The position numbers were made by a program, and so were the translations under genes. This document shows, in pieces, positions 42,214-63,669 of a DNA stretch of 64,000 bases. Under the pieces are notes generated by a model. It saw nothing but the letters and a program-made list of their open reading frames with translations. It ran no database searches and was not told where the DNA came from. The stretch is from an uncultured Lachnospiraceae bacterium (GTDB lineage: Bacteria > Bacillota > Clostridia > Lachnospirales > Lachnospiraceae), in the NCBI GenBank assembly GCA_947630025.1, contig CANRFZ010000004.1:62001-126000 (forward strand). Direction: 5' to 3'. Positions within the stretch are counted from its first letter, which is position 1, and each line of letters begins with the position of its first letter.

Positions 42214-42232
42214 AATCGTTCCTTTCTTCATC

Positions 42233-43352: not shown

Positions 43353-43353
43353 C

Positions 43354-46246: not shown

Positions 46247-46258
46247 TTTGCACCTCTT

Positions 46259-47428: not shown

Positions 47429-47447
47429 GATTCTTCTCCTGTATAGC

Positions 47448-48518
47448 CTATATAAATGGATCAAAATATCTCGGCAAAGCCGCATTAACTTGGTTGATAA
47501 TGTTATTGTAAGCAATTGCGCGGCAATTTTTACACTGCCCGCTCACCCATTTCTGATTTGACAGTTCCTTAACCGCCTTGTGTTGTTCTGAATTCCACAT
47601 ATCCTGCAGATCAGTCTCGTAGAGATTTCCAATACAAAACTCTGCTTTATCAATCTCCACAATATTAGGGTAAACACGGCCATCGGTGCTGACATTGGCA
47701 ATCATACCGAATTGATTAACCCAGCACTTATGCACAAATTCCGGCTGCTTTCTGTAATTGAAGATGGAGCGAAGATTGGTAAATTTTTCATCAATCCCCT
47801 GATGTTCTTCTATGACTCTCCGCAGATACTGCTCTTCCTCCTCATTCAATCCCTGCCCATTGTCTTCATAATCGCGCACTATCTTAAATAAAGCATAATC
47901 AAATTGCCGCTCCCTGATGGTTTGTAAAAAATCATCTACACATTTATAATTTTTGTTAGTCAAAACCACTCTCGATCCGATAATGGGACTGCGAGCACCA
48001 TGATATTCCTTTATTTTCCGGGGCAGCGATAACATTTTAAAGAGATTATCCGTACCGGTAATCGTCCGAAACGTCTCCTGATCCACTGCAGGAACGGAAA
48101 TGGCAATATAGTTTAGCTTATCAGCGATCGGAATCAATCCCATCTCCTCAAAGCAGGACGCATTGGTAATCATGGAGCATTCTATCCCGTTCGCAGACAA
48201 CCGTTCAATATAGTCTGCCAAATGAGGATATAGAGTTGGCTCGCCCCCGCCCGAAAAGTATACTGCCCGAATCCCCATCGCGATGACAGAATCAATCAGG
48301 CGGTTCATTACCTCTGTAGACAGACTGGCCCTGTTTTCATTTCTTTCCTTATAAGAACAATGTATGCACCTGTGATTGCAGGCTGCAGTGGGATGGATTT
48401 CTATCGCAACCGGCGCGAAATCTTCTTTTCCCTTGCTGATATCCTCCAACATCTTTCCATAATGAAACAAAATCTTTGATGAATTTAACAAATCCTGTGA
48501 TAAAGCGATATCTTTCAT
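47448..48518 (-). CDS. Radical SAM/SPASM enzyme
   Basis: 356 aa. CNHRCIHC cluster motif near residue 47, SGGGEPTLYP as GEP motif, ITNAS, and a C-terminal auxiliary cluster region (CWVNQF, GQCKNCRA). It is more distant from the other two radical SAM proteins of the operon. The AGGAG site supports ATG 48518. Function in the glycan pathway unknown; radical deoxygenation or epimerisation of a sugar is possible. Confidence 0.82.
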   Translation of the reverse strand: MKDIALSQDLLNSSKILFHYGKMLEDISKGKEDFAPVAIEIHPTAACNHRCIHCSYKERNENRASLSTEVMNRLIDSVIAMGIRAVYFSGGGEPTLYPHLADYIERLSANGIECSMITNASCFEEMGLIPIADKLNYIAISVPAVDQETFRTITGTDNLFKMLSLPRKIKEYHGARSPIIGSRVVLTNKNYKCVDDFLQTIRERQFDYALFKIVRDYEDNGQGLNEEEEQYLRRVIEEHQGIDEKFTNLRSIFNYRKQPEFVHKCWVNQFGMIANVSTDGRVYPNIVEIDKAEFCIGNLYETDLQDMWNSEQHKAVKELSNQKWVSGQCKNCRAIAYNNIINQVNAALPRYFDPFI

Positions 48519-48548
48519 ATTCTCTCCTGCCTCTGTATGACATTTTGG

Positions 48549-49244
48549 TTAAATTTCCGCCCTGAAACACCGCATCGCTCTGCATTTCTCTTTTATCCGG
48601 TCTCTTATCACGGTTTCTCCGGAATCGTTCAGTACTACTACCTGATCGTCTTCTATTGCCTGATGGTATACGATTGCATTGACACCGATCGATACTCTGT
48701 CACCGATAGGTTCTGCTCCTATAATCTTAGCGCCTGTTGAGATCCAACACCCCTTGCCTATTCTAAGCGTCTTCCCCCATAATGATTTTTCATTGTTGGA
48801 AGTATTAATCGTAATATTTTGATTAATAACTAAAAAATCGCTATATTCAGCATTCCCTATTACACTTCCTACCGCATGGTTAAATAGGAATATATTGGGC
48901 AATCCGGCCTTATAGGAAACAAAAAAACCATGAAGAATCCTATTCAAATACATGAGTTTGTCACATACCATCCTATTGTGTGAACGTGTCCATAACGTGT
49001 TGGCAAAATAATATAAAAACTGCGCGTATTGATCACTGTGTAGATGGGAGAAAAAAGTCTGCCCCGCATCGTTGCAATAACTTGTGTCTGCCACAAAAGA
49101 AAAACTATATTCCAACCGTTCAAGCGCTATGGCAAACGCCTCGTCTATTCCCCCCCCCGATAGCTCTGCATTGTCCGGAAAATACAGGGCACACTGGCGA
49201 AGCACATATTGTTTTAATTCCTGTTTGGACATTGACATATTCAT
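48549..49244 (-). CDS. Left-handed beta-helix acetyltransferase (CysE-like), tract-bearing
   Basis: 231 aa. Helical N-terminal half, then hexapeptide repeats (LWGKTLRIGKGCWISTGAKIIG, GDRVSIGVNAIVYH) as in serine acetyltransferase-type enzymes. It probably O- or N-acetylates a sugar; in this context it could play the LegH-type step, although LegH is usually PglD-like. Codons 29-31 (Gly-Gly-Gly) are a nine-G tract (49150-49158), in frame as written. ATG 49244 has GGAG ten bases upstream. Confidence 0.7.
   Translation of the reverse strand: MNMSMSKQELKQYVLRQCALYFPDNAELSGGGIDEAFAIALERLEYSFSFVADTSYCNDAGQTFFSHLHSDQYAQFLYYFANTLWTRSHNRMVCDKLMYLNRILHGFFVSYKAGLPNIFLFNHAVGSVIGNAEYSDFLVINQNITINTSNNEKSLWGKTLRIGKGCWISTGAKIIGAEPIGDRVSIGVNAIVYHQAIEDDQVVVLNDSGETVIRDRIKEKCRAMRCFRAEI
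49150..49158 (-). repeat. G9 tract near the start of the acetyltransferase gene (in frame)
   Basis: Nine G on the coding strand at codons 29-31; a one-base slip would leave only a short peptide. Confidence 0.9.
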
Positions 49245-49291
49245 GACGCATTCTCCCCGCCGCTTATCAACAATGGCTTGCCCTTCCTCTC

Positions 49292-49951
49292 CTAACCGTC
49301 TATCATCTTCACCACCCGGAAGCTTTCCGCGTAGCGCACGCCTGCCTCACTTCCCCGCAGTGTCGCGAGCGCTCTGATGGCCTCCTGATTTCTGGGAAAC
49401 GGGTGTGCCCCCATCTCCGTGTCATAGATTGACGCCGCCTGTAATTTTCCCTCCAGCGTATGTGATATATCAAAATAGAAATTCGGCGAAAAAGGATTCT
49501 CCGGTCTTCCGTAATTGGTCTCAGACAGGATTTCCATCGTCATCACCATCCTGACGCTCGGATGCCGGAACACCTTGGTGCACGCCAGACACCAGTCGAA
49601 TACCCGCCTGTGATCCGAGTGAATGTCATTGTAGTCCGGCAGGAAGATCCAGTTTGCCCCTATCTCGCTGATATACTGTCCTATCATGCCGATAGCCTCA
49701 TCATCCGCCACCTCCCTCAATTTGGTGGTAGGCAAACGCAGATTTCTGACGCTATCGAAACCATAGAACTCGCTGATTTTCCCGATCTGCTCTCTCCGCC
49801 GCTCTATCTGTTCCGTCGTATATCCCAGCTTTTCGTGCAGATCCGTGATATTGAGCCAGTAGAGCCGGTGCTTTTCACGCAGCTTTAACAACGTGCCGCC
49901 CGCGCCCAGCGTCTCGTCGTCCGGATGTGGAGATACCACCAATACATTCAT
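49292..49951 (-). CDS. PIG-L family N-deacetylase
   Basis: 219 aa. Zinc-site motifs SPHPDDETLGAGG at the N-terminus and NDIHSDHR around residue 112 are both intact. PIG-L enzymes remove acetyl groups from GlcNAc-type sugars. It overlaps the upstream formyltransferase by ATGA. Together they would replace an N-acetyl by an N-formyl group on a pathway sugar (inference). Confidence 0.88.
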   Translation of the reverse strand: MNVLVVSPHPDDETLGAGGTLLKLREKHRLYWLNITDLHEKLGYTTEQIERRREQIGKISEFYGFDSVRNLRLPTTKLREVADDEAIGMIGQYISEIGANWIFLPDYNDIHSDHRRVFDWCLACTKVFRHPSVRMVMTMEILSETNYGRPENPFSPNFYFDISHTLEGKLQAASIYDTEMGAHPFPRNQEAIRALATLRGSEAGVRYAESFRVVKMIDG

Positions 49952-50835
49952 AGCAGATATCCCCCTTCCTGCAGGCTGATATTGTCACAGTCCAGAATGT
50001 GCACCGCACCTTCCCCTGTCTTGACGACAAAATCCCGATCGGAACTGACCTTGATAATTCTGCCCGGCTCCCAATACACGGCAACGGGCTCACGCCAGAC
50101 CTCTGCACGCCAGACTTTGTATTCTTCTCCCTGATGGCAAAAATGTGCGCCCACATACGGATGGGTCAGTGCGCGTATCAAATTGTAAATGCTTTCGGCG
50201 CTCATCCGCCAGTCAATCCGACCGTCCTCTTTGCCGCGCTTACGCCAGCTATTACCGCCCGCATTCGCACGGACATAAGGGAAACGTCCCGTCTTCTCCG
50301 CATATTCTGTAAATTCTATCATCTGCCGTGCGGCGCTCTCTGCCACCTTCTGATAGAGCGATCCTGCATCGTCTTCAGGCGAAATCGTGATCGGCACCTG
50401 ACTAATGATATCCCCTGCATCCGCCTCCGGCGTCATCTTGAAAAAAGTGGAAGCGGTCTCCGGCAGTCCCAGCGCCAGTGCCCAGATCAGCGGATGTCTG
50501 CCGCGATTATTCGGCAGCGCGGCAGGATGAAAACCGATCCCGCCCATAGGAGGAATCTGCAGGATTTCTTCCGACAATAGCTTAGACCAGCCAAAACAGT
50601 AGATGACATCCGGTGCAGTATCACGTATGAATGCCTCAATAGCTCCCTTATCGGCTTCTTCCTCGCATATAAAAGGGATTTTCTGCTGCCGGCACAACGG
50701 AGCGAGCGACTGAAAATCAGCGTTGAACGCGCTGCTCCCTCTCGTGACCACCCCTGCAATCTGCTTTCCATGCTCCAACAATGTCTGAAACAGTACAACA
50801 GACGACTGCACACAACCGATAAAACAAATCTTCAT
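49948..50835 (-). CDS. Formyltransferase-family protein (sugar N-formyltransferase)
   Basis: 295 aa. Formyltransferase catalytic core with FHPAALPNNRGRHPLIWAL (the H and N/R of the family) and DAGDIISQVPI. A small C-terminal beta domain resembles Fmt-C. It would pass a formyl group from N10-formyl-THF to a sugar amine. ATGA overlaps join it to NeuC upstream and the PIG-L deacetylase downstream. It is the first of three such genes within 7.2 kb. Confidence 0.8.
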   Translation of the reverse strand: MKICFIGCVQSSVVLFQTLLEHGKQIAGVVTRGSSAFNADFQSLAPLCRQQKIPFICEEEADKGAIEAFIRDTAPDVIYCFGWSKLLSEEILQIPPMGGIGFHPAALPNNRGRHPLIWALALGLPETASTFFKMTPEADAGDIISQVPITISPEDDAGSLYQKVAESAARQMIEFTEYAEKTGRFPYVRANAGGNSWRKRGKEDGRIDWRMSAESIYNLIRALTHPYVGAHFCHQGEEYKVWRAEVWREPVAVYWEPGRIIKVSSDRDFVVKTGEGAVHILDCDNISLQEGGYLL

Positions 50836-52010
50836 TCCGCCACCTCCCCGACAGGAAGGTCATAGAATGCCTTCTTGATATTCACTTCACCGTTGGCAAA
50901 ACGCTCCTCTAGGATACCCATAATTGCATCAGAAGTGTTCCCCGTTCCGTAAGGATTGGGAACATGGCGGACACGTTCACGGAACTCCGGCTCCGCAGCC
51001 TGCGCCATACCTTTCAGGATGTCCGCGCATTCCGGACGGCAGTTGATAATGCTTGCCGCCTGCACACGCCCTTTCTGTCGGTCGCCGATATTGACCGTAG
51101 GGATACCAAAGGCCGGAACTTCTACAATGCCGCTGGAGGAGTTGCCGATCACCATCTCACTGTGCTTCACGGCACTCAGGTATCTTCTCATCCCCAATGA
51201 CTCATAGAGACGGATATTGTTCCGGTCGGCGGCATATTCTTCCCACATACGGTTAATCACCCTGCCGCCCGCGTCCGCGTTGGCCTTGGTACACAGATAG
51301 AGGTATTCCGGGTGCCCGTCCATCGCGCACATCAATTCCCGCATCTGTTCCTGTGCGGTATTGTCTTCCAGCGTAACAGGATGAAATGTGACCACTGCAT
51401 AGGGTTTCTGCAGATCGCAGTCGATTTCCCGTGATAACTCCTCTTTTGACAAGAGCTTTTCCTGCAGCACATTTTCCACGCCAAGGGCGCCCACATTAAA
51501 TACCCGGTCAGGCTGCTCGCCCATCTGAATAACGCGCCGGCGATATACTTCCGTACTGGTAAAATGGAAATAACTCATCTTTGTGACGGAATGCCGGATT
51601 GCCTCGTCGATCAGTCCTTCCGTGGCTTCTCCGCCGTGAATATGGAAAATCGGAATCCTTGCATTCATGGCCGCGCAGCACACCGCCATAATCTCATAGC
51701 GGTCCCCCAGAACCAGAACCGCATCCGGAGCGCTTTTTTCAAAATATTCCGAAAAGCTGATCATCGCCAAGCCCATCGACTTGGACATCGCCGTCGGCGT
51801 GTCGGAGCTGAGCAGTATTTCTATTTTGTTATCAATGTGCAGTCCGTCCTGCTCTATCTCATGATAGGTAGAGCCGAACTCCGGCGACAGGTGCATCCCT
51901 GTTACCGCCAGTTCCAATGTAAAATGCAAAGAGCGGTTCAGTTTCATGATAAGCGGTCTTAACAGTCCGTATTCCGCTCTGGTTGCCGTCACAACAACAA
52001 TTTTTTTCAT
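50832..52010 (-). CDS. neuC: UDP-GlcNAc-type hydrolysing 2-epimerase (NeuC/LegG)
   Basis: 392 aa GT-B-like epimerase. VTATRAEYGLLRPL at the N-terminus, VLGDRYEIMA, HIHGGEATEG, VIGNSSSGIVEVP, and the C-terminal PNPYGTGNTSDAI and KKAFYDLP. It hydrolyses a UDP-sugar and inverts C2, giving the ManNAc-type precursor for NeuB. A second, phase-variable homologue lies directly upstream. The ribosome site is weak, so translation may depend on the preceding gene. Confidence 0.9.
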   Translation of the reverse strand: MKKIVVVTATRAEYGLLRPLIMKLNRSLHFTLELAVTGMHLSPEFGSTYHEIEQDGLHIDNKIEILLSSDTPTAMSKSMGLAMISFSEYFEKSAPDAVLVLGDRYEIMAVCCAAMNARIPIFHIHGGEATEGLIDEAIRHSVTKMSYFHFTSTEVYRRRVIQMGEQPDRVFNVGALGVENVLQEKLLSKEELSREIDCDLQKPYAVVTFHPVTLEDNTAQEQMRELMCAMDGHPEYLYLCTKANADAGGRVINRMWEEYAADRNNIRLYESLGMRRYLSAVKHSEMVIGNSSSGIVEVPAFGIPTVNIGDRQKGRVQAASIINCRPECADILKGMAQAAEPEFRERVRHVPNPYGTGNTSDAIMGILEERFANGEVNIKKAFYDLPVGEVAE

Positions 52011-52044
52011 AATGTGCTTTGCCGCAGCACAGGATGATAATCCG

Positions 52045-53215
52045 TTATGTCCTCTGAGAAGGGAGGTCGTAAAAGCGCTTCATCAGATCGATACGATTCT
52101 GAAACAAGAACTCCTTACAGACGGACAGGATTTTCATACTTGTGCTATCCGCTGCATACGGATTATGCGCTGCCCCCCCCCCGATATTTCCATTCTCTGG
52201 CTCTGTCCATCGCCTTTCCGATCTCCTCTCTGTTTGTCCCACAATGAATGACCGACTCTGCTGCCAGCCTTCCTCTCTGCCTGTCTCCGATATCCACCGT
52301 CGGCACACCCAAGGCTGGGGCCTCCACAATGCCGCTGGAAGAATTGCCAATCACCATCTCACTGTACTTCACCGCACTCAGATACCGCTTCATGCCCAGT
52401 GAAGCCACCGCGCACACATTGGGGCGTGACGACGAATAATCATCTATCATTTCATTGATGGTACGCCCATGCGTATCTGCATTGGCCTTGGTAATCAGAT
52501 ACCGCATATCACAGGCATCCAGCGCCGCAAAGAGTTCTTCCACCTGTGCCCTGACATCTCCCTGTTCCAGCGTAACCGGATGAAAAGTCACAACCGCGTA
52601 CGGAGCTTCCAGTGAAAATTGAAGCGCCGCCGACAGTTCCTCTCTGGACAACAGTACCGTATTCCTGATATTCTCCACGCCGAGGGCGCCGACCGTAAAT
52701 ACCCGATCCGGAGATTCTCCTAATTGGACAATGCGCCGGGCATATGCCTCCGTTGTCGGGAAATGCAGATAGCTGAGCTTGGTGATGGCGTGGCGGATCG
52801 CGTCGTCTGCCGCCCCTTCCGTAATCTCTCCGCCGTGGATATGCGCAATCGGAATGCAGGCATTCATGGCCGCCAGACACACCGCGAGAGCCTCGTAGCG
52901 ATCTCCCAGCACAATCAGCATATCCGGCCTGTTCTCTGCAAAATATACGCCGAATCCCTCCAATGCCCGCGCCATCGCCCGGCTGGTATCGGCGCCCGAA
53001 TCGCCCTCTCCCAAAATTGGAATGCGGACTGCTATCGGAAATCCGTCATCCAAAATCTCCTGAAAGGTATTGCCGAACGCCTGTGACAGATGCGTTCCCG
53101 TAACCAATAGCTGCAGTTCCAGTTCGTCGTCTTCCGCTATGCGCCGTATCAGCGGTTTTAAGAGCCCATATTCGGCTCTGGTGGCCGTCAGCACCGCGAT
53201 CTTCCCATGATTCAC
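52045..53215 (-). CDS. Second NeuC/LegG homologue, phase-OFF (frameshifted at G10)
   Basis: From the GTG at 53215 (GAGG site) the frame matches NeuC throughout (TATRAEYGLLKPL, VLGDRYEALA, HIHGGEITEG, VIGNSSSGIVEAP). It then enters a ten-G tract near codon 345 and stops at 52163 after an unrelated short tail. With nine G the frame continues to 52045 and ends AAHNPYAADSTSMKI...KRFYDLP, matching the conserved NeuC C-terminus; total 389 aa, close to its neighbour's 392. As written it lacks about 40 C-terminal residues and is probably inactive. It overlaps NeuB by four bases (GTGA). Confidence 0.85.
52173..52182 (-). repeat. G10 tract in the second neuC (out of frame; G9 restores)
   Basis: Ten G on the coding strand. 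Nine G gives RGGAAHNPYA and the family C-terminus. Confidence 0.9.
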
Positions 53216-54219
53216 AACTGCACCTCAATCAAATCATCCGCCTCATAATCCCGGTCCGCCGTCCGCCCCAATATCTCGTTCCATCTCATAGGCGAGATAC
53301 CGCTGCCGGGCCGCTTGACGGCCAGATTGTCCTCCGTGAAGACTTCCCCCTTACGGATCGACACGCCGGCCACAATGCTCTTGCGCACGATCACGAGATT
53401 TTCTCTCTCGGATGCCGTAACCCTCTTATGTCCGTCTCCCATGGCCGCCTCTATATTACGGATAGAAGCCACCATCTGTTTCAGCTCGTCCGGCTCCAGA
53501 CTCGCCCGATGATCCGGCCCTTCCATGTCTCTGTCCAAAGTAAAGTGCTTCTCTATGATGGCGGCGCCCAGCGCTGCCGCCGCAATCGGCACTTCGATGC
53601 CCAGCGTATGGTCGGAGTAACCTACCGGCACCCGGAACATTTCCCGCATCTGTTCCATAGCCCGCAGATTCACATCCTGCATGGGCGTGGGATACTGCGT
53701 GTTGCAGTGCAGCAGGGAGATATCCGCCGTGCCGGACTGCCGCAGCACCTCCAGCGCCCGACCGATCTCCTCCGGTTCGCTCATACCCGTGGACAGGATC
53801 ACCCTGCCGCCGAACGCTCCTATTGTCTTGAGCAGAGGATAGTTCGTGATCTCCCCGGAAGGGATCTTATAGGCAGCCACGCCGATCTCATGCAGGAATC
53901 TCGCACTGTCCAGATCGAAAGCCGTAGACAGGAAAAGAATTTTCTTCTCCTCGCAGTACGCCTTCAGCTCACGAAACTCGTCAAATGTCAGTTCCAGCTT
54001 CCGGATCATGTCGAGCTGGCTTCCCGCCTCGCCGACAGTCTCCTTCTGATAACTCGCTTTCTCCGCTCCGGCTGAGACGCAGTTCGTCCCGATAAAAGTC
54101 TGGAACTTTACGGCGTCCGCTTTTGCCTCCGCCGCCGCATCCACCAGCTTCTTGGCGAGCCCGATGTCTCCGTTATGATTCACTCCCGCTTCCGCGATGA
54201 TAAATATGTGCTCCTGCAT
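53212..54219 (-). CDS. neuB: Nonulosonic acid synthase (NeuB/LegI)
   Basis: 335 aa. TIM barrel with AEAGVNHNGD, DAVKFQT, IPSGEITNYPLL, LLHCNTQYPTPM and KHFTLDRDMEGPDHRAS. A C-terminal SAF/antifreeze-like domain (about 275-335, RKSIVAGVSIRKGE) follows. It condenses PEP with the C6 amino sugar made by NeuC to give a nine-carbon acid. The ATG at 54219 shares a base with the upstream stop (TAATG). Both NeuC genes follow it. No CMP-sugar synthetase was found in the window. Confidence 0.92.
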   Translation of the reverse strand: MQEHIFIIAEAGVNHNGDIGLAKKLVDAAAEAKADAVKFQTFIGTNCVSAGAEKASYQKETVGEAGSQLDMIRKLELTFDEFRELKAYCEEKKILFLSTAFDLDSARFLHEIGVAAYKIPSGEITNYPLLKTIGAFGGRVILSTGMSEPEEIGRALEVLRQSGTADISLLHCNTQYPTPMQDVNLRAMEQMREMFRVPVGYSDHTLGIEVPIAAAALGAAIIEKHFTLDRDMEGPDHRASLEPDELKQMVASIRNIEAAMGDGHKRVTASERENLVIVRKSIVAGVSIRKGEVFTEDNLAVKRPGSGISPMRWNEILGRTADRDYEADDLIEVQL

Positions 54220-55154
54220 TACTGTATCCTTTCTGCCGCCTGTGGCAAACTGCTCTCCACCGTCCGACAACTTCTTAGCCTGTCTCCGATCCGTACCTTG
54301 CCGTCATAGGTATATTCCAGAACTTCCAGCATAGTGTCGCCGGTCTTGACCAAAAAGCCGTCGCCCGTTCTGCCTACGACCTGTCCGACAGTGTTCTTAT
54401 AGACATGACTCCCGGGAACCATCCGTGCACGGTTGATATAGATCGGCCTGCCGTCGATCCACGATACGGCCTGCGGCCCCGGCGTGCATAACGCCCTGAT
54501 AAAATTGAAAATTTCGCGGCTGGTATGATTCCAGTCAATGATCTCGTCGCCCTCCTGCCGCGCGCCGCAGTAGATGCCGACAGGATCGATATCCTGCTGC
54601 CGGATGCGCTCCGCCTGACCGGTCTGAATCAACTTGATAGCCCGATACAAAACATCTGCGCAGCCTGCATAGGCCCGCTCCAGCAACGTGGCGTAATTAT
54701 CCTCATCCGTGATCGGATAGGTCTCCTGCAGGATAATATCTCCGGTGTCGATCCCCTCATCCACATAATGAACGGTGATGCCGAACTCCTTCTCGTCATT
54801 GATAAGCGCCCAGTTCAGGATGTTCCTGCCCCGATAGAACGGCAGCTTGCCCGCATGACAGTTAATCGTCTTGTATACAGGCAGTTCTATCATCTCTCTC
54901 TTAAAAATCTGATTGAACGACATGGAGACAAATAACTCCGCGTGATACCGCTCTATCCGTTCCCTAAATTCCTGTGAATTGATATTAGCGCTCAATTCCA
55001 CGGGAATCCCATGTTCTTCGGCTTTTTGCAGGAGATAGGTGTCGCGCTTATCGTACCTGACTGTCATGAACACAATCTCAATCGAATCATCCGATATGAT
55101 CTTCTCGAACGCCTGATGCGCCCACGGGCCGTCCGCAAAATATCCTATCCTCAT
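54219..55154 (-). CDS. Formyltransferase-family protein (sugar N-formyltransferase)
   Basis: 311 aa. Core motifs INCHAGKLPFYRGRN and ITVHYVDEGIDTGDI with the catalytic N-H and D of the family, then a C-terminal beta domain. Start ATG 55154 overlaps the upstream stop (ATGA), and its own stop overlaps neuB. Part of the tightly coupled NeuB-centred gene set. Substrate probably an amino sugar intermediate of the nonulosonate. Confidence 0.82.
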   Translation of the reverse strand: MRIGYFADGPWAHQAFEKIISDDSIEIVFMTVRYDKRDTYLLQKAEEHGIPVELSANINSQEFRERIERYHAELFVSMSFNQIFKREMIELPVYKTINCHAGKLPFYRGRNILNWALINDEKEFGITVHYVDEGIDTGDIILQETYPITDEDNYATLLERAYAGCADVLYRAIKLIQTGQAERIRQQDIDPVGIYCGARQEGDEIIDWNHTSREIFNFIRALCTPGPQAVSWIDGRPIYINRARMVPGSHVYKNTVGQVVGRTGDGFLVKTGDTMLEVLEYTYDGKVRIGDRLRSCRTVESSLPQAAERIQ

Positions 55155-56299
55155 GCGGCAAGCCCTCCGCGCCTATTTACAGGGAAGGGATTACGCCCCC
55201 CCCTGATCGAATCTGTTACACAAGTCTGCATATCAGCGTTTTCCTCCATGGCCCTGTATGTAATCATAAACGGCACATCAGCACAAAAGGAACTGTCATG
55301 TTTCTTTCTCAACCCTACCAGTTCATCAAATGCTGACTGGTCAAAAATCGTCCTCCCAATATAAAAATCTGCAGCGCCCTGCGGACAAAAATTCCGTTTA
55401 AATCTATATAACGTATCTTCCGCTTCCGTACCGCCGCCCAGATGAAGCGCACGCATACCGTTTTGATTGGCCCAGCGAGCCGCTGATCGTAATAGTAAAT
55501 TGAAAGGCGCATATTTCCGGCCCTCGATTGTCGTGCCGCCGAGGTGATAGTGCATATACCTATCGCTATACAAAAAAACAGCCGCGCTGATAATCTCCCC
55601 ATCCTTTCGTGCATAAAAGAAAATAAGATGATCATTCATATTTTTAATCAAATATGTGAAATACTCTTTTTTAAAATAATAGTACGCATCCGCCTGATGG
55701 TGCTGCATTGTCATATAGTATATCCGCAGAAATTCATCCAGTTTCTCACCTCTGTCATGCAGCACCTCCACGGCATTCTTTTCAGCTTTCCGCACCCGAT
55801 TCCTGCATTCCGACGTCATGTTTTGATCAATAGCTTCATAGTCCGATGTATCTATCGCTACAGTTTTCTTGAGAGATTTCATTTCACATATATCCGTAAA
55901 CAATCTGTGATTATGCAGCAGCGGATGAAATCTGAAAAATTGCGATACAATATGATGCCCGGCACAATAAGAAAATAATTCCGCTCTGAATCGCTCCAAT
56001 ACGTCATGGGTTATCTGCCCTTCCGTCAACGGCCCGCCATATCCATAGGGTGATGTCCAGTCATAATAACGACCGGTCTCCAATAGATGCCGAAATGCCC
56101 GGCTTTCCGCAATATCGTTTTGAAACATCACATACGCGATTCTGGCACCCTGCTCCTCATAATAGATAAGCAGCGGCTGCCCATCTCCGTGCAGCATCAG
56201 CGCCGCATTATATTCGTATGTAAAATAAATATCCCATTGTTCAAAACTCTGTATCAGACAATTCCACCGTTCCCGGTTTGCCGTGTCGATTATTTCCAT
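55151..56299 (-). CDS. FemAB/GNAT_6-like acyltransferase, tract at its 3' end
   Basis: 382 aa with two GNAT-like halves: IYFTYEYNAALMLH near the N-terminus and a YMHYHLGGTTIEGRKYAPFNLLLRSAARWA segment with LHLGGG in the second half, typical of FemAB/BioF2-type transferases. It may attach an acyl or aminoacyl group to the glycan. An eight-G tract (55196-55203) starts at codon 366. At this length the stop overlaps the next start as ATGA; seven or nine G ends translation earlier, so coupling to the formyltransferase would be lost. ATG 56299 follows GAGG. Confidence 0.72.
   Translation of the reverse strand: MEIIDTANRERWNCLIQSFEQWDIYFTYEYNAALMLHGDGQPLLIYYEEQGARIAYVMFQNDIAESRAFRHLLETGRYYDWTSPYGYGGPLTEGQITHDVLERFRAELFSYCAGHHIVSQFFRFHPLLHNHRLFTDICEMKSLKKTVAIDTSDYEAIDQNMTSECRNRVRKAEKNAVEVLHDRGEKLDEFLRIYYMTMQHHQADAYYYFKKEYFTYLIKNMNDHLIFFYARKDGEIISAAVFLYSDRYMHYHLGGTTIEGRKYAPFNLLLRSAARWANQNGMRALHLGGGTEAEDTLYRFKRNFCPQGAADFYIGRTIFDQSAFDELVGLRKKHDSSFCADVPFMITYRAMEENADMQTCVTDSIRGGRNPFPVNRRGGLAA
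55196..55203 (-). repeat. G8 tract at the 3' end of the FemAB-like gene
   Basis: Eight G on the coding strand. Only this length (of 7-9) gives the 17-residue tail that reaches the ATGA junction with the next gene. Confidence 0.85.
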
Positions 56300-57090
56300 A
56301 CATATTCCTCACAGATCAATACATATCTTTTGCCGTTTTTCTTCAACTCGATTGGTACGGATTTCCCTTTTTCGCTCTCTGCCTCATCTTCTGTTACGAT
56401 TTCCCTGACTCTGTATTTCATCTGATCCAACAGAATAACCGCACCGCCAAAATCTTTTACTGCCCTGATTTTCCGTTTTATCACATCATACGTGTCATTT
56501 TCGATGTCTATCGTATAATCGGCCTCCTGCACCTTAGGCCTGTACGTTCCCCGCTCCTTTCGCACTGTTTCTGCTATGCAGCCTTCTTGTATAAAATCTA
56601 CATATCTATCCAGCACTTTCTCCAAATGTGCATCCAGCTTATGATCCAGCTCTATATAATCGCTGCTTCCTACCTCTATCTCCTCCTCACAGATGACATT
56701 TCCCTCGTCAATCCCAGTGATCTGATACAATGTCAGCCATGTCTTCTCATCGCCAAGCAGAATCGTCCATCGGAGCGGGTGCGCGCCTCGATTGTTTTCT
56801 ATACTGCCTGGATGAATATTATAGAAATCGTGTCTGGCAATAATATCTCGCGGTATGATATATCCGAACTTGTAAATCAGAACTTTGTCCGTTCGAATAT
56901 GATCTTCTATTCGACAAATATCCGCCTTCTCATTCATTTCATACAAATCAATTTTTTGATCGGCAATCATCATCTTCGTTTCAGGAGAGATAACGCCCGG
57001 CTTTGTGATAATGCCGACCAGTGTCAGCCGTTCATCCGCAAGCAGGCATTGTATCATTTTCTCGGAATAACCTATATAAGTCAGGCGCAT
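56290..57090 (-). CDS. Formyltransferase-family protein (sugar N-formyltransferase)
   Basis: 266 aa, the third of this fold in the operon. FYNIHPGSIENNRGAHPLRW carries the N-H...RG motif, and GIDEGNVICEEEI the later Asp region. The C-terminal part (YTIDIENDTYDVIKRKIRA) is a short extension. It lies 3 bases downstream of the TPP enzyme and overlaps the FemAB-like gene by 10 bases. Three paralogues suggest several formylated positions or alternative sugars. Confidence 0.78.
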   Translation of the reverse strand: MRLTYIGYSEKMIQCLLADERLTLVGIITKPGVISPETKMMIADQKIDLYEMNEKADICRIEDHIRTDKVLIYKFGYIIPRDIIARHDFYNIHPGSIENNRGAHPLRWTILLGDEKTWLTLYQITGIDEGNVICEEEIEVGSSDYIELDHKLDAHLEKVLDRYVDFIQEGCIAETVRKERGTYRPKVQEADYTIDIENDTYDVIKRKIRAVKDFGGAVILLDQMKYRVREIVTEDEAESEKGKSVPIELKKNGKRYVLICEEYVWK

Positions 57091-57093
57091 GAT

Positions 57094-58881
57094 TCATCTA
57101 TCCTTAATCATCAATTCTTTGTATTCGTCTTCCGGCAGGAACGGATACATATCCTGCAGCGCAGGCGTGAGCATTTTGCCGTTCTCGTCCAGTCGGGACA
57201 TCACGCGCGGCATAACAGGATCGTCAAAGCGCTGTTCTATCTCCAGCAGCACCCGTTCTTTACTTCCGGTCAGCCATTTCACGCTTTCCTCCACTTCCGC
57301 ATTGGAAGCGCATTTCCTGTACGCAAAGCCGAAAGTATCCGCAACTTTGGCAAAATCCGGAAAGCTGACGCCCGTATCCGGCGTGCAGCCGATGTAAGCG
57401 CCTGCGAAGAAATTCTTGCTCGTCTGCCGGATGGCTCCGTAGCCCTCGTTGGAAAAGATCACGAGGCTGACCGGCAGGTCGTTCTGCACGATCGTCTGCA
57501 GCTCCTGCAGATTCATCATCACACTGCCGTCACCGGTGATACAGTACACTTTCCGGCCGGAAGCCACCGCCGCCCCGATTGCCGCCGGCAGATCATATCC
57601 CATGGAGCCGCAGGTATAGTTGGTCAGTGTCCGCTGCCCCGCATACTGCACGCCGACCTGCAGCTTCGCCGTGTTCGCGGTATTGTTGCCCAGCGCCAGT
57701 ATGCTGTCATGTTCCTCGTACTGCTGAAATATTTTCCAGAAATAATAGGAACATACCCGCTCGTCCATCGCGATCTGCTCTGCCGCCTCAAACGGCGTAA
57801 ACCTGTTTTTCAGCATATTACAGTAGTCCAGCCAAACTTGCGGAGCTTCCACCGCGCAGTCCATGTGCAGCAATACATTCATCACTTCCCGCACATCGCC
57901 GTGCAGGAATCTGCTGATTCGCAGCCCCGGTTTTCTGCTCTCGGCCTCGTCCGCATCTACCATAATGATCTTGGCATCCGGCGCGAACGCCTCCTGATTG
58001 AATCCTGTCTGGCGGAATCCCAGACTGTTTCCCAATGTCAGAATCACATCCGCATTCTGCAGGATAAAATTGCCTGTACGCGGCCCAACATTACCGGAAG
58101 TTCCATAATATAACGGATGCTCGGTATACAGATTGTCCGCAACCCATGAACCGCCTATCACAGGAACGCCCATGCGCTCTGCCAGCTCTGCAAACAGGCT
58201 CCGGCTCCCGCTGCTGATAATGCCCGATCCGCCCAGAATACACGGCCTGTCCGCCTGCCGCAGCAGATCGATGATACCCTGCGCATCCGCCATACTGACT
58301 GCCGGCACGCTGCTGGGCGTCTCCTCCGCCGCATACAGTTCCCCTGCCTCTACTCTGGCGTTCTGGATGTCCTGCGGCACATCGATCCATACCGGCCCTC
58401 TCCGGCCATCCAGCGCTATCCGGATAGCCTTAATCAGTTCTCTCCTGACCGCCAGAGGATCGGTCAGCATCACGGCATATTTGGTCATATTTTTTACCGC
58501 AGGAATGATCTCAAATTCCTGAATGCCCCTGTACCTGAGCGGCAGACCGGATTTGGGAACGGAGATTTCATACCGCACCTGCCCCGACAATACGATCATC
58601 GGCAGACTGTCCTGCCATGCGCCCATCACACCGGTCAGGGTATTCGTAGCGCCCGGGCCGCTGGTGACGCAGACCGCCGCCATTCTGCCGCTATATCTGG
58701 CGTAGGCTTCCGCTGCCATGGCACACGCCTGTTCGTGGTGGTTGAAATACTTGTGTATTCCGTCACAGACCAGCAGTGCGTTGTCTAGGTGCATCGCGCC
58801 GCCGCCCACCACGGCGAAACAGTCGGTAATCCCATATTCCACCAGTGTATCCATGATGATGTCTGCTACTCTCTTACCCAT
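57094..58881 (-). CDS. Thiamine-pyrophosphate enzyme, acetolactate-synthase-like
   Basis: 595 aa with the three-domain TPP layout. The catalytic Glu is in HHEQACAMAAEAYAR near residue 50, with SGPGATNT, and the TPP/Mg motif runs GDGSVMMN...SNEGYGAI near 450-480. Homologues in sugar operons add a two-carbon unit from pyruvate to a keto sugar (as YerE does to a CDP-4-keto-3,6-dideoxyhexose) or oxidise/decarboxylate a small acid. The CDP-keto-sugar genes at 32-36 kb could supply such a substrate, but this gene is coupled to the NeuB set. A second homologue begins at 63662. Confidence 0.8.
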   Translation of the reverse strand: MGKRVADIIMDTLVEYGITDCFAVVGGGAMHLDNALLVCDGIHKYFNHHEQACAMAAEAYARYSGRMAAVCVTSGPGATNTLTGVMGAWQDSLPMIVLSGQVRYEISVPKSGLPLRYRGIQEFEIIPAVKNMTKYAVMLTDPLAVRRELIKAIRIALDGRRGPVWIDVPQDIQNARVEAGELYAAEETPSSVPAVSMADAQGIIDLLRQADRPCILGGSGIISSGSRSLFAELAERMGVPVIGGSWVADNLYTEHPLYYGTSGNVGPRTGNFILQNADVILTLGNSLGFRQTGFNQEAFAPDAKIIMVDADEAESRKPGLRISRFLHGDVREVMNVLLHMDCAVEAPQVWLDYCNMLKNRFTPFEAAEQIAMDERVCSYYFWKIFQQYEEHDSILALGNNTANTAKLQVGVQYAGQRTLTNYTCGSMGYDLPAAIGAAVASGRKVYCITGDGSVMMNLQELQTIVQNDLPVSLVIFSNEGYGAIRQTSKNFFAGAYIGCTPDTGVSFPDFAKVADTFGFAYRKCASNAEVEESVKWLTGSKERVLLEIEQRFDDPVMPRVMSRLDENGKMLTPALQDMYPFLPEDEYKELMIKDR

Positions 58882-58890
58882 TGTTCCGCC

Positions 58891-59931
58891 CTATACGTTT
58901 AATTTCTTTCTCATAGACTCCAGTTCTTCCAGCTGGCCCATATCCATATAGGCGTCTTCCTCTACCACGTACACGCCTATTTTGGCTCCCCGCCGTCTGG
59001 AATCGTCAACCAGCTCCGGAAAAGATATATTTTCCCCATGCGGCATCCGCCGCAGAAGGTCATGATCGACGACATACATACCGGTATTGATCAGATAGTC
59101 CATCTCCGGCTTTTCCCGCATGGCTTCATACTGGCCGCCGCCGTCGCACACCACCACGCCGTAAGGCACTTTCTGGCGATATTTAGCGGCTACCATTGTG
59201 ATATAGTTTTTTTCTCTCTGATGATAGTTGTATATTTCAGCGTAGTCGGCATCTATGATAATGTCGCAGTTGATCAGAAAAAAATCCTGCTTTATTCTGT
59301 CTTCCAGCAGATACAGGCCGCCGCCTGTCCCTAACGGCTGCGCTTCTTCGATATAGGTGATCTGATAATTCTTGTGCACACTGTTGTAGTACGCCTGAAT
59401 CATATCCTTTTTATGATTCACGATAAAATAAAACTGTCCGCAGCCAAACTCCACAAAATTATTGACGATACGCTCCGAGATCGGGATATCGCCGACCGGA
59501 ATGAGCGCTTTCGGCAGAATCTTCGTATACGGATATAACCTTGTTCCTCTGCCTCCGGCCATCATCACCACAGGGCAAGCCAGCGTACACGCCCGGCGCA
59601 CACGGCGGCCGTTTCTAAACACCACCTCGACGACCTCCTGATTGTAATTGACGATCGGCAGGGAATAAATCTCTGTGCGTTCAAACACCGCGTCGATTTT
59701 CTCTTTCTCATAGCGGGTTAGGTATTGAGGGGTACTGCTGGCAATTTTTCGCACCGGCAGGCTCATGTCTCCCTCCTGCAGAACGAAACGCCGCACGTCG
59801 CCATCCGAAACCGACGCGGTCAGCTTGCCGTTATTGACGACATAGATCACCTTGCATCTGACACGCTCCAACTGTGCCACGGCGCTTCTGATATTACTGT
59901 TCTCATCAATCAGAATATCTTCCAACTGCAT
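58891..59931 (-). CDS. ptmE: CBS-domain nucleotidyltransferase, PtmE-like
   Basis: 346 aa. Two CBS motifs (about 1-120: EDILIDENSNIRSAVAQL and VRKIAS) precede a nucleotidyltransferase domain starting VMMAGGRGTRLYPYT near residue 125 with LPKALIPVGDIPI. This is the PtmE layout; PtmE makes GDP-glucosamine for GDP-legionaminate precursor synthesis in Campylobacter. The nucleotide used here may be GTP or another. ATG 59931 is preferred (GGTGAG upstream); an ATG at 59943 overlaps the previous gene and lacks a site. Confidence 0.82.
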   Translation of the reverse strand: MQLEDILIDENSNIRSAVAQLERVRCKVIYVVNNGKLTASVSDGDVRRFVLQEGDMSLPVRKIASSTPQYLTRYEKEKIDAVFERTEIYSLPIVNYNQEVVEVVFRNGRRVRRACTLACPVVMMAGGRGTRLYPYTKILPKALIPVGDIPISERIVNNFVEFGCGQFYFIVNHKKDMIQAYYNSVHKNYQITYIEEAQPLGTGGGLYLLEDRIKQDFFLINCDIIIDADYAEIYNYHQREKNYITMVAAKYRQKVPYGVVVCDGGGQYEAMREKPEMDYLINTGMYVVDHDLLRRMPHGENISFPELVDDSRRRGAKIGVYVVEEDAYMDMGQLEELESMRKKLNV

Positions 59932-59935
59932 AGAC

Positions 59936-60832
59936 TCACCCATAAATCAACGACATCACATCTATCTCATCTTCATGCCGCCTGTACCAGTCGTACAACG
60001 CTCCCACCGAATCCCTGATATCCGTAAAACGCATCTGCGGAAGCTCCTTCAGAATCCTGTCATTATTGGCCGTATACTCGTTGGCATAACCTTCCTGACA
60101 CACGAGGATCGGCTGCGGTGTTCCAGCCGCTTCATTGACGAGTTCCGCCAGTGTGTATAAATCAATCCTCTCGCCGCGCACGGCATTGTAAGTATGGTGC
60201 TGCGGCTTGTCCAACTGCAGGAACAACTCCAGCATACGGCAGAAATCATCTATCCACAGATAGTCGAAATAACAGTTCCGGCGCATGGATAGCGGCAAAC
60301 CCTTAATCGATTTGCAGCACAGATTGGAAATATACTTGCTTGGCCAGTGCTCATATTTGCCGAAGATGCCGAACAGACGCAGATTATATATGTTCTCGCT
60401 GCACTCTATCATCTGATTCACGGTGTATTTCATCAGTCCGTACGGATCGACCGGAACCGTGTGCCGCACGATATCGTCCTCCGTCACGGATGCGATCGGA
60501 AAACGCTTGTCATACTCCGCGCCCGAACCCGTATAAATCATTCTGCCGTACAGGTCGGAATGCACTCGAAAATTGTGAAAAATCCGCAAATTATATTCTA
60601 ACGACTTCGTACCGTCCTTGTTCTTGTCGATGGCATCGCCGTATACCGCGAAGTGCAGGACGACATCATAGCATCCCTGCCGCAGACAGGCGGCTACGCT
60701 GCGCTCGTCGATGCAGTCCAGTTCTCTGCTCGCAGGCGCATACACATCATATCCCCGATTCACAAGATATTCTTTTACATTCCGCCCCACGAAGCCGGAG
60801 CCGCCCGTAATCAGTATCTTCACACTTTTCAA
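59936..60832 (-). CDS. NAD-dependent sugar epimerase/reductase; first gene of the 21-gene operon
   Basis: 298 aa extended short-chain dehydrogenase. ILITGGSGFVGRNV at the N-terminus, a TGSGAEYDK segment, and DPYGLMKYTVNQ with the catalytic Tyr/Lys. Probably a nucleotide-sugar 4-keto reductase or epimerase; the exact reaction is unclear. The start is a TTG at 60832 or a GTG at 60823, both with weak ribosome sites. Its start lies only 36-45 bases from the left recombination site, so its promoter must be in or beyond the invertible segment. Confidence 0.75.
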   Translation of the reverse strand: MKSVKILITGGSGFVGRNVKEYLVNRGYDVYAPASRELDCIDERSVAACLRQGCYDVVLHFAVYGDAIDKNKDGTKSLEYNLRIFHNFRVHSDLYGRMIYTGSGAEYDKRFPIASVTEDDIVRHTVPVDPYGLMKYTVNQMIECSENIYNLRLFGIFGKYEHWPSKYISNLCCKSIKGLPLSMRRNCYFDYLWIDDFCRMLELFLQLDKPQHHTYNAVRGERIDLYTLAELVNEAAGTPQPILVCQEGYANEYTANNDRILKELPQMRFTDIRDSVGALYDWYRRHEDEIDVMSLIYG

Positions 60833-60867
60833 ATCAGCTTTCTGTCAACGAAATTGTCGGTTTGATG

Positions 60868-60895
60868 AGAAAACATTCTGTGCAAAATGTTTTCT
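60868..60895. repeat. Left recombination site of the inverton
   Basis: AGAAAACATT arm, CTGTGCAA spacer, AATGTTTTCT arm: perfect 10-bp inverted arms around 8 bases, the form of a tyrosine-recombinase core site. The region 60879-60899 is an exact 21-base inverted copy of 61669-61689. Confidence 0.85.
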
Positions 60896-60912
60896 TCGCG
60901 CGCAAAAGGGCG

Positions 60913-60941
60913 GATAATGGCAGTACGACTGTAACTTACAA
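60913..60941. promoter_or_regulatory. Weak promoter signals at the left end of the inverton
   Basis: Leftward: TTGTAA (60936-60941), 16-base spacer, CATTAT (60914-60919). Rightward: GATAAT (60913-60918), whose -35 position would overlap the left recombination site, a possible recombinase-gene promoter under autocontrol. Confidence 0.4.
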
Positions 60942-60953
60942 AGGAGGAAGCAT

Positions 60954-61535
60954 ATGAGTACAACACAGCCACTGAAAAACATTGACGAGATTGAAGAACT
61001 GAAACGGTATTTCCTGCGGAGGGGAGAGATAAGGAATTATGTGCTGGTTACGCTGGGGATCAACACGGCGCTGCGGATCAGCGACCTGCTGCAGGTGGTC
61101 TGGAAGGATGTGTATGATTTCAGGTTTGAACGTGTCAGGCAGCACATGACTATTGTCGAACACAAAACCGGCAAAACGGCAAATGTTTATCTTAATCACC
61201 ACTGCGCGGAAGCATTGGAGATGCTGAAAACGCATCTGAAACGAGAGATCCAAGACTGTGAATATGTATTTCGGAGCCGCGTCGGTGCAAACAAGCCCAT
61301 CAGCAGAAACCGCGCCTATGTGATTATCAAGAATGCCTGCCTTGAACTGGGGTACGAAGGAACGCTGAGCTGCCATTCCCTGCGCAAAACGTTTGGCTAT
61401 CACGCATGGAAACAAGGGACATCCCCGGCGGTTCTCATGTCAATCTATAACCACTCCTCCATGAAAATCACCATGCGCTACCTCTCCATTGAGCAGGACG
61501 ACAAGGATGATGTCTACAAGACTGTCATGTTGTGA
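60954..61535 (+). CDS. Small tyrosine recombinase (FimB/FimE-size), candidate DNA invertase
   Basis: 193 aa, the catalytic domain only, without the usual N-terminal arm-binding domain; this is the size of FimB/FimE. All catalytic residues are seen: Arg41 (TALRISDLL), Lys71 (KTGK), His141 and Arg144 (HSLRKTFG), His167 and Tyr176 (MRYLSIE). A strong AAGGAGG site precedes the ATG. The gene is flanked by inverted copies of a recombinase-type site (60868-60895 and 61673-61700). No phage genes or tRNA are nearby. It most likely inverts its own segment, and with it the outward promoter at 61631-61659 (inference). Confidence 0.85.
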   Translation: MSTTQPLKNIDEIEELKRYFLRRGEIRNYVLVTLGINTALRISDLLQVVWKDVYDFRFERVRQHMTIVEHKTGKTANVYLNHHCAEALEMLKTHLKREIQDCEYVFRSRVGANKPISRNRAYVIIKNACLELGYEGTLSCHSLRKTFGYHAWKQGTSPAVLMSIYNHSSMKITMRYLSIEQDDKDDVYKTVML

Positions 61536-61593
61536 CGCGCAGCACCGGCGAGAGCTGCAGAATTTCCGTTGCGGAAAGGCTGATCGAGGCAGG

Positions 61594-61623
61594 CTGATCC
61601 GGGCAGTGATCAGGGCAGTTTTT
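61594..61623 (+). terminator. Probable terminator after the recombinase
   Basis: CTGATC/GATCAG stem (61594-61599 with 61608-61613), a GGCAG spacer and five T. Weak, but placed between the recombinase stop and the outward promoter, insulating the promoter from recombinase transcription. Confidence 0.45.
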
Positions 61624-61630
61624 AAAATTC

Positions 61631-61659
61631 TTGCAATACCCCTGACTTTGTACTATAAT
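61631..61659 (+). promoter_or_regulatory. Outward promoter inside the invertible segment
   Basis: TTGCAA, 17-base spacer, perfect TATAAT. The start point would be near 61666, a few bases before the right recombination site. As written it drives the rightward operon; after inversion it would drive the 21-gene leftward operon. Confidence 0.75.
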
Positions 61660-61672
61660 AAAATAGCTGCGA

Positions 61673-61700
61673 AGAAAACATTTTGCACAAAAAGTTATCT
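61673..61700. repeat. Right recombination site of the inverton
   Basis: AGAAAACATT inner arm, TTGCACAA spacer, AAAGTTATCT outer arm (imperfect). Inverted relative to the left site; inner arm and 7 of 8 spacer bases match. Confidence 0.85.
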
Positions 61701-61754: not shown

Positions 61755-62579
61755 ATGCACACATTCATCACTGCCGAGATCGGCATCAACCACAACGGGG
61801 ACTTGGGACTGGCCAAAAAACTGATCGACGCGGCAGCCGTGGCGGGCTGCGACGCGGTGAAGTTCCAGAAGCGCACCGTTGACACCGTATATACGAAGGA
61901 ATACCTTGACAGCCCGCGGAAAAGCCCGTGGGGAGAGACCCAGCGCGCCCAGAAGGAAGGGCTGGAGTTCGGGAAAGAGGAGTATGACGAGATCGACCGC
62001 TACTGCCGGGAAAAGGGGATCGAGTGGTATGCGTCGGCATGGGACGCCGGCTCCCAGAAATTCCTGCGGCAGTATGGCTGCAAATATAATAAGGTGGCCT
62101 CGGCCATGCTGACCAACGAGGAGCTGCTGGAAGAAATCGCCGGGGAGGGGAAGTACACGTTCATCGCCACGGGGATGAGCACCTTCGGGGAGATCGACCG
62201 CGCGGTGGAGGTCTTTAAAAAGCACGGCTGCCCTTTCGAGCTGATGCACTGCAACAGCACCTATCCCATGCCCATGGAGGAGGCGAACCTGAAGCTGATC
62301 GGCGTGCTGGCACAGAGGCACGGCTGCAGGGCGGGCTACAGCGGGCATGAGGCCGGGACGCTGGTGAGCACCTGCGCGGTGGCGGCGGGGGCTTCCTCCA
62401 TAGAGCGCCACATCACGCTGGACAGGACGATGTACGGCTCGGACCAGAAGGCCTCCATAGAGCCCTATGAACTGTGCGCGCTGGTAAAGGCCATACGGGA
62501 CGTGGAAAAAGTGATGGGCACGGGGGAGAAAGCCTTAAGCGCGGCGGAGGAAGAAGTCAGGAAAAAACTGAGGGGATAG
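61755..62579 (+). CDS. NeuB-family synthase lacking the SAF domain
   Basis: 274 aa. TIM barrel with TAEIGINHNGD, DAVKFQKRT, MHCNSTYPMPM, AGYSGHEAGT and ERHITLDRTMYGSDQKAS. It ends soon after the barrel, so the C-terminal SAF domain (about 60 residues) of typical NeuB is missing. It would condense PEP with an aldose to a 3-deoxy-ulosonic acid; the missing domain suggests a different substrate. The ATG at 61755 follows AAAGGGA. First gene of the rightward operon, about 90 bases from the inverton promoter. The codon usage is strikingly GC-rich (many AGG, GGG, CTG). Confidence 0.82.
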   Translation: MHTFITAEIGINHNGDLGLAKKLIDAAAVAGCDAVKFQKRTVDTVYTKEYLDSPRKSPWGETQRAQKEGLEFGKEEYDEIDRYCREKGIEWYASAWDAGSQKFLRQYGCKYNKVASAMLTNEELLEEIAGEGKYTFIATGMSTFGEIDRAVEVFKKHGCPFELMHCNSTYPMPMEEANLKLIGVLAQRHGCRAGYSGHEAGTLVSTCAVAAGASSIERHITLDRTMYGSDQKASIEPYELCALVKAIRDVEKVMGTGEKALSAAEEEVRKKLRG

Positions 62580-62598: not shown

Positions 62599-63669
62599 AT
62601 GATAGAACTGATCGTATTGGACATAGACGGCGTGGTCACGGACGGCTCCGTCATCATCGACTCTGACGGGAAGGAACAGAAGCAGGTCAACTTAAAGGAC
62701 ATCGACGCCATATTTGAGCTGCACCGCAGGGGATACAAGCTGGCGGCGGTCACCGGGGAGGAGACGGAGATCGTCGGCTACTTCGAGAAGCGCTTCCCGT
62801 GGGAATATTTCTACCGGGGGAGCAGGACGAAGAAGGAGACCATGAGGCAGATCGAGGAAGGCAGCGGCATAAGCCGGGAGCACATCTGCTATGTGGGGGA
62901 CGGCAAGTACGACGTGGAGCCCCTGTCCTATGCAGGGCTCGGGGTGTGCCCCGCCAATGCCATAGACAGGGCGAAGGCCGCCGCGGACATCATCCTGCAG
63001 AACGACGGCGGGAAGGGGTGCCTCTGGGAGCTGGTCTCGTTATTGGAGAAGTACAATGACCCGGCCTGCGCCCACAGCTACTTTTTGGGGAGGCTGGAGG
63101 AGCACACAGGCATCTTTAAGAAGCTGGCGTCCGACCGGGAGCTGGCGGACACGGTCATGGCGGCTGCGGAGAGGCTGGCAGGCATCCTGGAGGCCGGAGG
63201 GCGGTTGTACCTGTTCGGCAACGGCGGGAGCGCCGCGGATGCGCAGCACATCGCGACGGAGTTCATCAGCCGTTTCTATAAGGAGAGGCCGGGGCTCAAC
63301 GCGGAGGCGCTGACGGTGAACACGTCCACGCTGACGGCGGTGGGGAATGACTACGGCTACGAGAGGGTGTTTGCGAGGCAGCTGGAGGCGAAGGCCGAGG
63401 CCGGGGACATGGCCGTGGGGATCAGCACCAGCGGGCGGTCCGTGAACGTGCTGGAGGGGCTGCGGTATGCGCGCCGCAACGGGCTGGTTACGGTCCTCCT
63501 GACGGGAGGCTATGAGAACCCGGAGACTGCGGACACAGCGGAGTATGTGGTCAGGGTGCCGTCGTTAATCACGCCGAGGATACAGGAGGCGCATATCTTC
63601 ATCGGCCATGTGATGGCGGAGTATGTGGAGCACAGGTTGTTTGGAGATAAAAGCAGGAAAGATGATTAA
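62599..63669 (+). CDS. Fused KdsC-type phosphatase and GmhA-type sugar-phosphate isomerase
   Basis: 356 aa. Residues 1-160 are a small HAD phosphatase of the KdsC/CMP-sugar type (VLDIDGVVTDGS with Asp8/Asp10, VGDGKYDVEPL). Residues about 165-350 are a SIS-domain sedoheptulose-7-phosphate-type isomerase (LFGNGGSAADAQHIATEF, VNTSTLTAVGNDYGYERV, GISTSGRS). It could isomerise a ketose phosphate to an aldose phosphate and dephosphorylate the product or substrate for NeuB. The fusion links two usually separate steps. It overlaps the next gene by eight bases. Confidence 0.85.
   Translation: MIELIVLDIDGVVTDGSVIIDSDGKEQKQVNLKDIDAIFELHRRGYKLAAVTGEETEIVGYFEKRFPWEYFYRGSRTKKETMRQIEEGSGISREHICYVGDGKYDVEPLSYAGLGVCPANAIDRAKAAADIILQNDGGKGCLWELVSLLEKYNDPACAHSYFLGRLEEHTGIFKKLASDRELADTVMAAAERLAGILEAGGRLYLFGNGGSAADAQHIATEFISRFYKERPGLNAEALTVNTSTLTAVGNDYGYERVFARQLEAKAEAGDMAVGISTSGRSVNVLEGLRYARRNGLVTVLLTGGYENPETADTAEYVVRVPSLITPRIQEAHIFIGHVMAEYVEHRLFGDKSRKDD

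Follow-up and report, generated by a model that had tools for sequence, protein, structure and literature searches.

The window analysed here is a stretch of 64,000 nucleotides from the genome of an uncultured Lachnospiraceae bacterium. Towards its right-hand end lies an 833-bp segment, at positions 60868-61700, that has an inverted arm at each end and is a candidate invertible cassette. The features of the segment and of the gene runs on either side are as follows.

38001..60832, minus strand: left run of 21 same-strand genes of nonulosonate/sugar type, facing off the cassette (open reading frames and Pfam)
53212..54270, minus strand: NeuB with a SAF domain, in the left run (Pfam)
59936..60823, minus strand: opening gene of the left run, an NAD-dependent epimerase/dehydratase (proposed GTG start; a TTG start at 60832 is possible)
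60868..60899, plus strand: left inverted repeat, putative recombination site, with a perfect 10-8-10 palindrome at 60868-60895
60954..61535, plus strand: tyrosine recombinase of 193 aa, within the segment (open reading frame and Pfam Phage_integrase)
61594..61613, plus strand: weak hairpin resembling a terminator, between recombinase and promoter (1 such hairpin in the region, where chance alone would give 1.5)
61631..61659, plus strand: outward sigma-A-type promoter, TTGCAA-N17-TATAAT
61669..61700, minus strand: right inverted repeat, putative recombination site (from repeat pairing)
61755..62579, plus strand: NeuB-family gene that opens the right run, with no SAF match (Pfam)
62599..63669, plus strand: protein with HAD-like and SIS domains, second in the right run (Pfam; the run goes past the window end)

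The two arms, 60868-60899 and 61669-61700, match at 29 of 32 positions, with 21 contiguous identical bases, and their 8-nt cores are identical. Both the coordinates of the segment and the 21 identical bases had been given in an original prediction made for this DNA, and the repeat comparison confirms them. That prediction also assigned 10-bp arms and an 8-bp spacer to each site, which fits the left site perfectly but the right site only in part, its palindrome (as read from the sequence) matching at 8 of 10 positions in the 10-8-10 register. The inverted-repeat score of 26 is the best in the region 60500-62200, where 300 dinucleotide shuffles reached 18 at most, and short motifs from the repeat sites have no further occurrence in the rest of the window. 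The self-contained anatomy of the cassette between its inverted repeats is confirmed as real.

A score of 26 is also reached by one other of 74 sliding windows (start 18701). This second repeat was rejected as a recombination site. Both best repeats of that sliding window lie, in the same register, within two paralogous genes, 17815-19353 on the minus strand and 19618-21063 on the plus strand (MBOAT), whose proteins are 32% identical; the region 17815-21063 is an instance of inverted homology between divergent MBOAT-type paralogues that mimics a recombination repeat.

The recombinase has a Pfam Phage_integrase domain (PF00589) scoring 85.4 bits against a cut-off of 27.1 (E = 5e-24). It was compared within a set of 89 non-identical recombinases, made up of the best 80 of 143 relatives from a scan of GTDB genomes, those of loci L149-L153 and the two copies carried by the window's genome; the loci covered are L036-L116, L118 and L139-L153, without the short ones L012-L035, and one of the relatives searches kept at most three scored candidates per genome, so that copies may be missed. 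Residues R41, K71, K74, H141, R144, H167 and Y176 are invariant in all 89, and six of them (R41, K71, H141, R144, H167 and Y176) presumably fill the R-K-H-R-H-Y roles, in agreement with the full set predicted for this 193-aa enzyme. The earlier label 'FimB-like' is apt only loosely; the enzyme's scores against two curated NCBIfam models of tyrosine-type DNA invertases, which we take to be FimE and FimB, are 46.3 bits against a cut-off of 222 and 28.4 bits against 221, and its gene lies between the repeats, whereas the FimB/FimE type is defined by a gene outside the element. The archaeal XerA model is likewise below its cut-off, at 70 bits compared with 220.

The promoter that had been predicted close to the right site, facing outward, is present. 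Its score is unremarkable, since seven sites including that at 61631 reach 10/12 within 42000-61900, and the general scan of the region (44 promoter-like sites compared with 32 expected, 8 terminator-like compared with 15) is too noisy to judge operon unity. Conservation is more informative. The window recombinase and those of loci L036-L040 form one clade (SH-aLRT 99 in a quick tree), and the pattern TTGYAA-N17-TATAMT, with identical spacing, stands before the right repeat in all six members of this sigma-A clade and in none of the other 83 relatives. Matches to the promoter pattern number 17 per 2.0 million background strand-bases, with the six clade copies included. The promoter is kept though the clade recombinases are only 65-68% identical, and the spacer around it is poorly conserved by eye. 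The hairpin at 61594..61613 could keep the recombinase and promoter transcripts apart; the leader hairpins are modest, with z of -2.36 and -1.19.

Genes begin close to both repeats, the first gene of the left run 35-44 bases away and the right NeuB 54 bases away at 61755, which leaves hardly any space for separate promoters, and the promoter scan found no promoter-like site between the left run and the repeat on the left-run strand. By Pfam, the left run encodes an epimerase, a nucleotidyltransferase, a TPP enzyme, three formyltransferases (one of them weak), a GNAT/FemAB-like protein, the SAF-containing NeuB, two UDP-GlcNAc 2-epimerases, a PIG-L deacetylase, three radical SAM/SPASM proteins, a DegT aminotransferase, an FkbM methyltransferase and a pyruvyltransferase, with four genes giving no match. 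The right same-strand run ends roughly 14 kb away from the repeat, beyond the window, and opposite-strand genes follow. Judged from these protein families, nonulosonate-type sugar synthesis is likely encoded on both flanks. A 21-gene leftward run immediately beside the site, and NeuB genes on both sides, were both part of the original prediction and are borne out by the gene calls and Pfam matches.

These features suggest how the locus may operate. The tyrosine recombinase would act on both repeats and invert the segment in which it is itself encoded, and the single internal sigma-A-type promoter, located just before the right repeat, would fire outward. In the assembled orientation the right NeuB and HAD/SIS genes would be transcribed; in the inverted orientation it would be the left 21-gene run, and each cell would be set to one of two nonulosonate-type sugar programmes. 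We consider it probable that 60868-61700 is a self-contained invertible promoter cassette of this kind, making an either/or choice between the two. The invertible-promoter model draws on the conserved promoter, the co-evolution of the arms, the conserved active-site residues, the opposite placement of a NeuB operon in a relative, and the divergent neighbouring genes. We infer that the segment inverts in cells, that both operons depend on the promoter at 61631, and that surface or flagellar sugars are what the operons make.

Comparisons within the sigma-A clade bear directly on this model. The nearest genes diverge from the cassette on both sides in five of the six members, giving the either/or geometry of operons facing off both sides, and the presence of gene runs on both sides in this clade would make the outcome a choice between two sugar programmes. 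Nine of the ten flanking genes searched in the five relatives belong to surface-sugar or related Pfam types (NeuB three times, and a TPP enzyme, nucleotidyltransferase, GT2, pyruvyltransferase, CDP-glycerol glycerophosphotransferase and radical SAM protein once each); the tenth, the left gene of L039, has no Pfam match. In the window and in L039 the promoter is directed toward the NeuB operon; in L038 a homologous NeuB operon (67% identity over 278 aa) is on the opposite side, and what lies ahead of the promoter is a nucleotidyltransferase gene. The left epimerase operon of the window recurs in L036, oriented as in the window, and a different NeuB-containing run lies to the right of the L036 cassette. 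The original prediction had proposed a search of related genomes for the opposite orientation, and L038 supports inversion in this sense, although the comparison is one across species in which the flanks otherwise differ. Its central proposal, an invertible promoter, gains support from the conservation of the promoter, the arms and the placement in L038, with inversion and either/or expression being the parts that we predict from these.

A rival arrangement would be an on/off switch for the right NeuB operon only, the left operon being self-regulated and its placement incidental. L039, which has the same clade membership and the same right operon as the window, has left neighbours that point toward the cassette, so either/or choice is not universal within the clade, and many of the flagellin cassettes described below also seem one-sided, the nearest right-hand ORF pointing back in 28 of 44 members of the genus set by rough ORF calls. 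The divergent neighbours in the other five clade members, together with the short distance from the repeat to the left operon and the lack of a promoter-like site between them on its strand, argue against it, and we regard a one-sided switch as unlikely, if worth keeping in mind. A point against the either/or cassette model itself is that homologues of genes from these operons are found in ten stretches from the genus (L139-L148), all without a family recombinase, so such genes can run cassette-free.

Sequence comparison places the window cassette in a family of self-contained cassettes that is widespread in Lachnospiraceae. The definition of this family, a recombinase within inverted repeats and an outward promoter before the distal repeat, describes the window cassette as well. 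Inverted repeats surround the gene in 68 of the 89 relatives, a count that includes L057, where the repeat is flagellin homology and not a site. Recombinase matches at E 0.001 occur in 245 of 299 family genomes (a sample of nearly one per genus), most of them weak and probably to ordinary integrases, and the window's genus has 53 matches at E 1e-40 in 39 of 77 genomes.

In most of the family the promoter is of a different type. Distal interiors contain a strict sigma-28-like promoter (consensus TAAAG-N-CCGATA) in 40 cassettes and the sigma-A type in six. All 40 strict matches are outward, with 0 inward in 7,215 bases, and the strict pattern has 81 occurrences over 2.0 million strand-bases in all; a looser pattern is found in 50 of 68 distal interiors compared with 8 of 68 proximal ones. 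An outward-pointing flagellin gene lies within 900 bp at 61 of the 89 loci (50 left, 10 right, 1 both). In this family set the sigma-28 promoter points away from the flagellin in 35 cases and toward it in five. In a genus set of 48 (L190-L236 and L118), which overlaps the family set of 89 in genomes, 46 members have CsrA-like and/or flagellin matches on the left, one has them on the right and one has none; the looser promoter is directed away from these matches in 44 members and at them in one, and the remaining three are without motif or repeats. Among strict distal sigma-28 members, the flagellin side changes four times on the tree. The cassettes can evidently lie either way, with what these assembled genomes suggest is a strong bias to a presumed off state, and the occurrence of both orientations relative to flagellin is counted in favour of the invertible-cassette model. 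The 44:1 bias could mean enzyme bias, selection, rare inversion or locked switches.

The strict sigma-28 motif occurs between repeat and flagellin on none of 62 flank sides, and the looser pattern on 3 of 60. As a weak control, the strict motif lies within 400 bp of 3 of 16 flagellins that have no cassette beside them and of 0 of 94 that do. Nearest genes are divergent in 26 of 66 cassettes family-wide (plus/plus in 10, minus/minus in 21 and plus/minus in 9, with a greedy ORF caller).

Several individual loci show further variation. Two inverted flagellin genes, alike at 436 of 487 bases, flank one cassette at L057:5330-7330; a flagellin either/or switch is possible there, and no strict sigma-28 motif was found inside that cassette. 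At L048, two family recombinases (1563-2156, plus strand, and ~6022-6597, minus strand) lie face-to-face about 4 kb apart with a flagellin match near each. A strict sigma-28 promoter at the other cassette end, ahead of the recombinase gene and directed away from it, is seen in L048, L053, L054, L061 and L099. In the genus set, 25 of 46 proximal repeat sites contain a TATA-like -10, and the recombinase promoter might there lie partly in the flank and partly in the site, so that it would differ between the two orientations; no such -10 was seen in the window's own proximal site.

The window's genome itself carries a second, 48%-identical cassette (L118:6729-7310, G000:C16:36728-37306), in which a sigma-28-like promoter faces away from a CsrA-like ORF, recognised by eye, and a flagellin gene. 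We would give an even chance to a broader reading in which one portable Lachnospiraceae module, an invertase and a promoter flipped together, serves as a general surface switch, its sigma-28 form gating csrA-flagellin genes and mostly off, and its sigma-A lineage acting as a two-way nonulosonate selector; with both forms in one genome, sister enzymes could switch filament protein and surface sugar.

The two arms of a cassette appear to co-evolve. Of 94 cassettes, 81 have one and the same 8-nt core sequence in their two arms, a count in which repeat detection, by favouring similar arms, inflates identity. Core pairs taken between cassettes are identical in 1.4%, with a maximum of 9 over 2000 permutations. 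The 94 cassettes derive from 68 + 46 after removal of identical recombinases and of sites without a TGTT anchor. Such identity within a cassette would follow if matching cores are a requirement for strand exchange. The outer arms are less even: among 52 cassettes, 36 have the less palindromic site on the flagellin side, 2 have the more palindromic one there and 14 show no difference (rows not independent); a weaker leader hairpin may perhaps be favoured on the transcribed side.

Such unevenness matters for a reading in which the window cassette was formerly invertible and is now locked or decayed in a single fixed orientation. The outer arm of its right site has drifted from the palindrome, and the orientation bias across the family is strong, both points in its favour. 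An intact reading frame, conserved active-site residues and identical cores in the window arms speak against decay, however, and many other cassettes of the family have uneven outer arms too; we consider a locked switch improbable. That the segment is a small mobile element, an integrase with its ends and no regulatory role, is very improbable: the protein is a Phage_integrase-family enzyme and homologous operon genes are cassette-free in other genus members, but the inverted ends share their core, the outward promoter is conserved, placement recurs at surface-glycan or flagellin genes, and a search of viral contigs by peptide patterns found no recombinase relatives.

The putative invertible cassette shares features with several known systems. 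In Salmonella Hin/fljBA the outward promoter is also inside the segment, Hin is a serine recombinase, and one operon is turned on or off, with the second flagellin handled via a repressor. The window segment is similar in holding both invertase gene and outward promoter, and differs in having a tyrosine recombinase and operons on both sides; for the mechanism, the simplest reading is that a Xer/Fim-type enzyme serves a layout like that of Hin. The recombinases of the fim switch, FimB and FimE, are encoded outside the element. That switch shares with the window a short tyrosine recombinase and a promoter between inverted repeats, unlike it in that the window recombinase is inside the segment and far under the curated invertase cut-offs. 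In Campylobacter fetus sap, one promoter is flipped between divergent S-layer genes to give either/or expression, in a larger segment with another inversion system and with S-layer proteins as the products. The likeness lies in one promoter, divergent surface genes and an either/or outcome; the window switch would instead serve two sugar operons.

In the portions of PMC5903667 drawn on here, the Hin gene is within its own invertible segment, fimS is short and contains only the promoter, and an 844-bp fimbrial segment of Providencia stuartii with 14-bp imperfect repeats encloses a recombinase ORF. The Providencia segment resembles the window cassette in size, in its enclosed recombinase and in adjoining surface genes; it differs in serving fimbriae in a proteobacterium, and a sugar-operon either/or is absent from its description in those portions (PMC5903667). 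In PMC11892184, as far as the main text goes, inverton group 139, linked with tyrosine invertase group 35, comprises 33 invertons detected in reads, 32 of them from Clostridia, and nearly all group 139 invertons have a nearby tyrosine recombinase; 'flagell' and 'sigma' each have 0 occurrences in that text. Group 139 may be the same family as the cassettes with TGCAACATT-type repeats.

The claim that the arrangement is unique was too strong, given a widespread Lachnospiraceae family, mostly beside flagellin genes and with a sigma-28-like promoter, and the precedents of Hin and Providencia for a recombinase inside its segment. Among the matches listed in a literature search with most subscription journals outside its coverage, titles and abstract openings included no invertible promoter choosing between two nonulosonate operons and no sigma-28 csrA-flagellin cassettes in Lachnospiraceae. 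The parts have precedents; for the putative either/or glycan switch and the sigma-28 flagellin cassettes no description was found, which is no proof of novelty.

If the proposed switch is correct, a gut commensal could alternate its surface glycans without a repressor, by means of a self-contained either/or promoter switch set between two large sugar operons. The wider family predicts phase-variable flagellin genes of gut Lachnospiraceae, together with their state, from assembled genomes alone, and flagellin phase variation bears on the escape of commensal flagellins from immunity and phages. With one gene, two sites and a promoter, the cassette is also a compact candidate tool.
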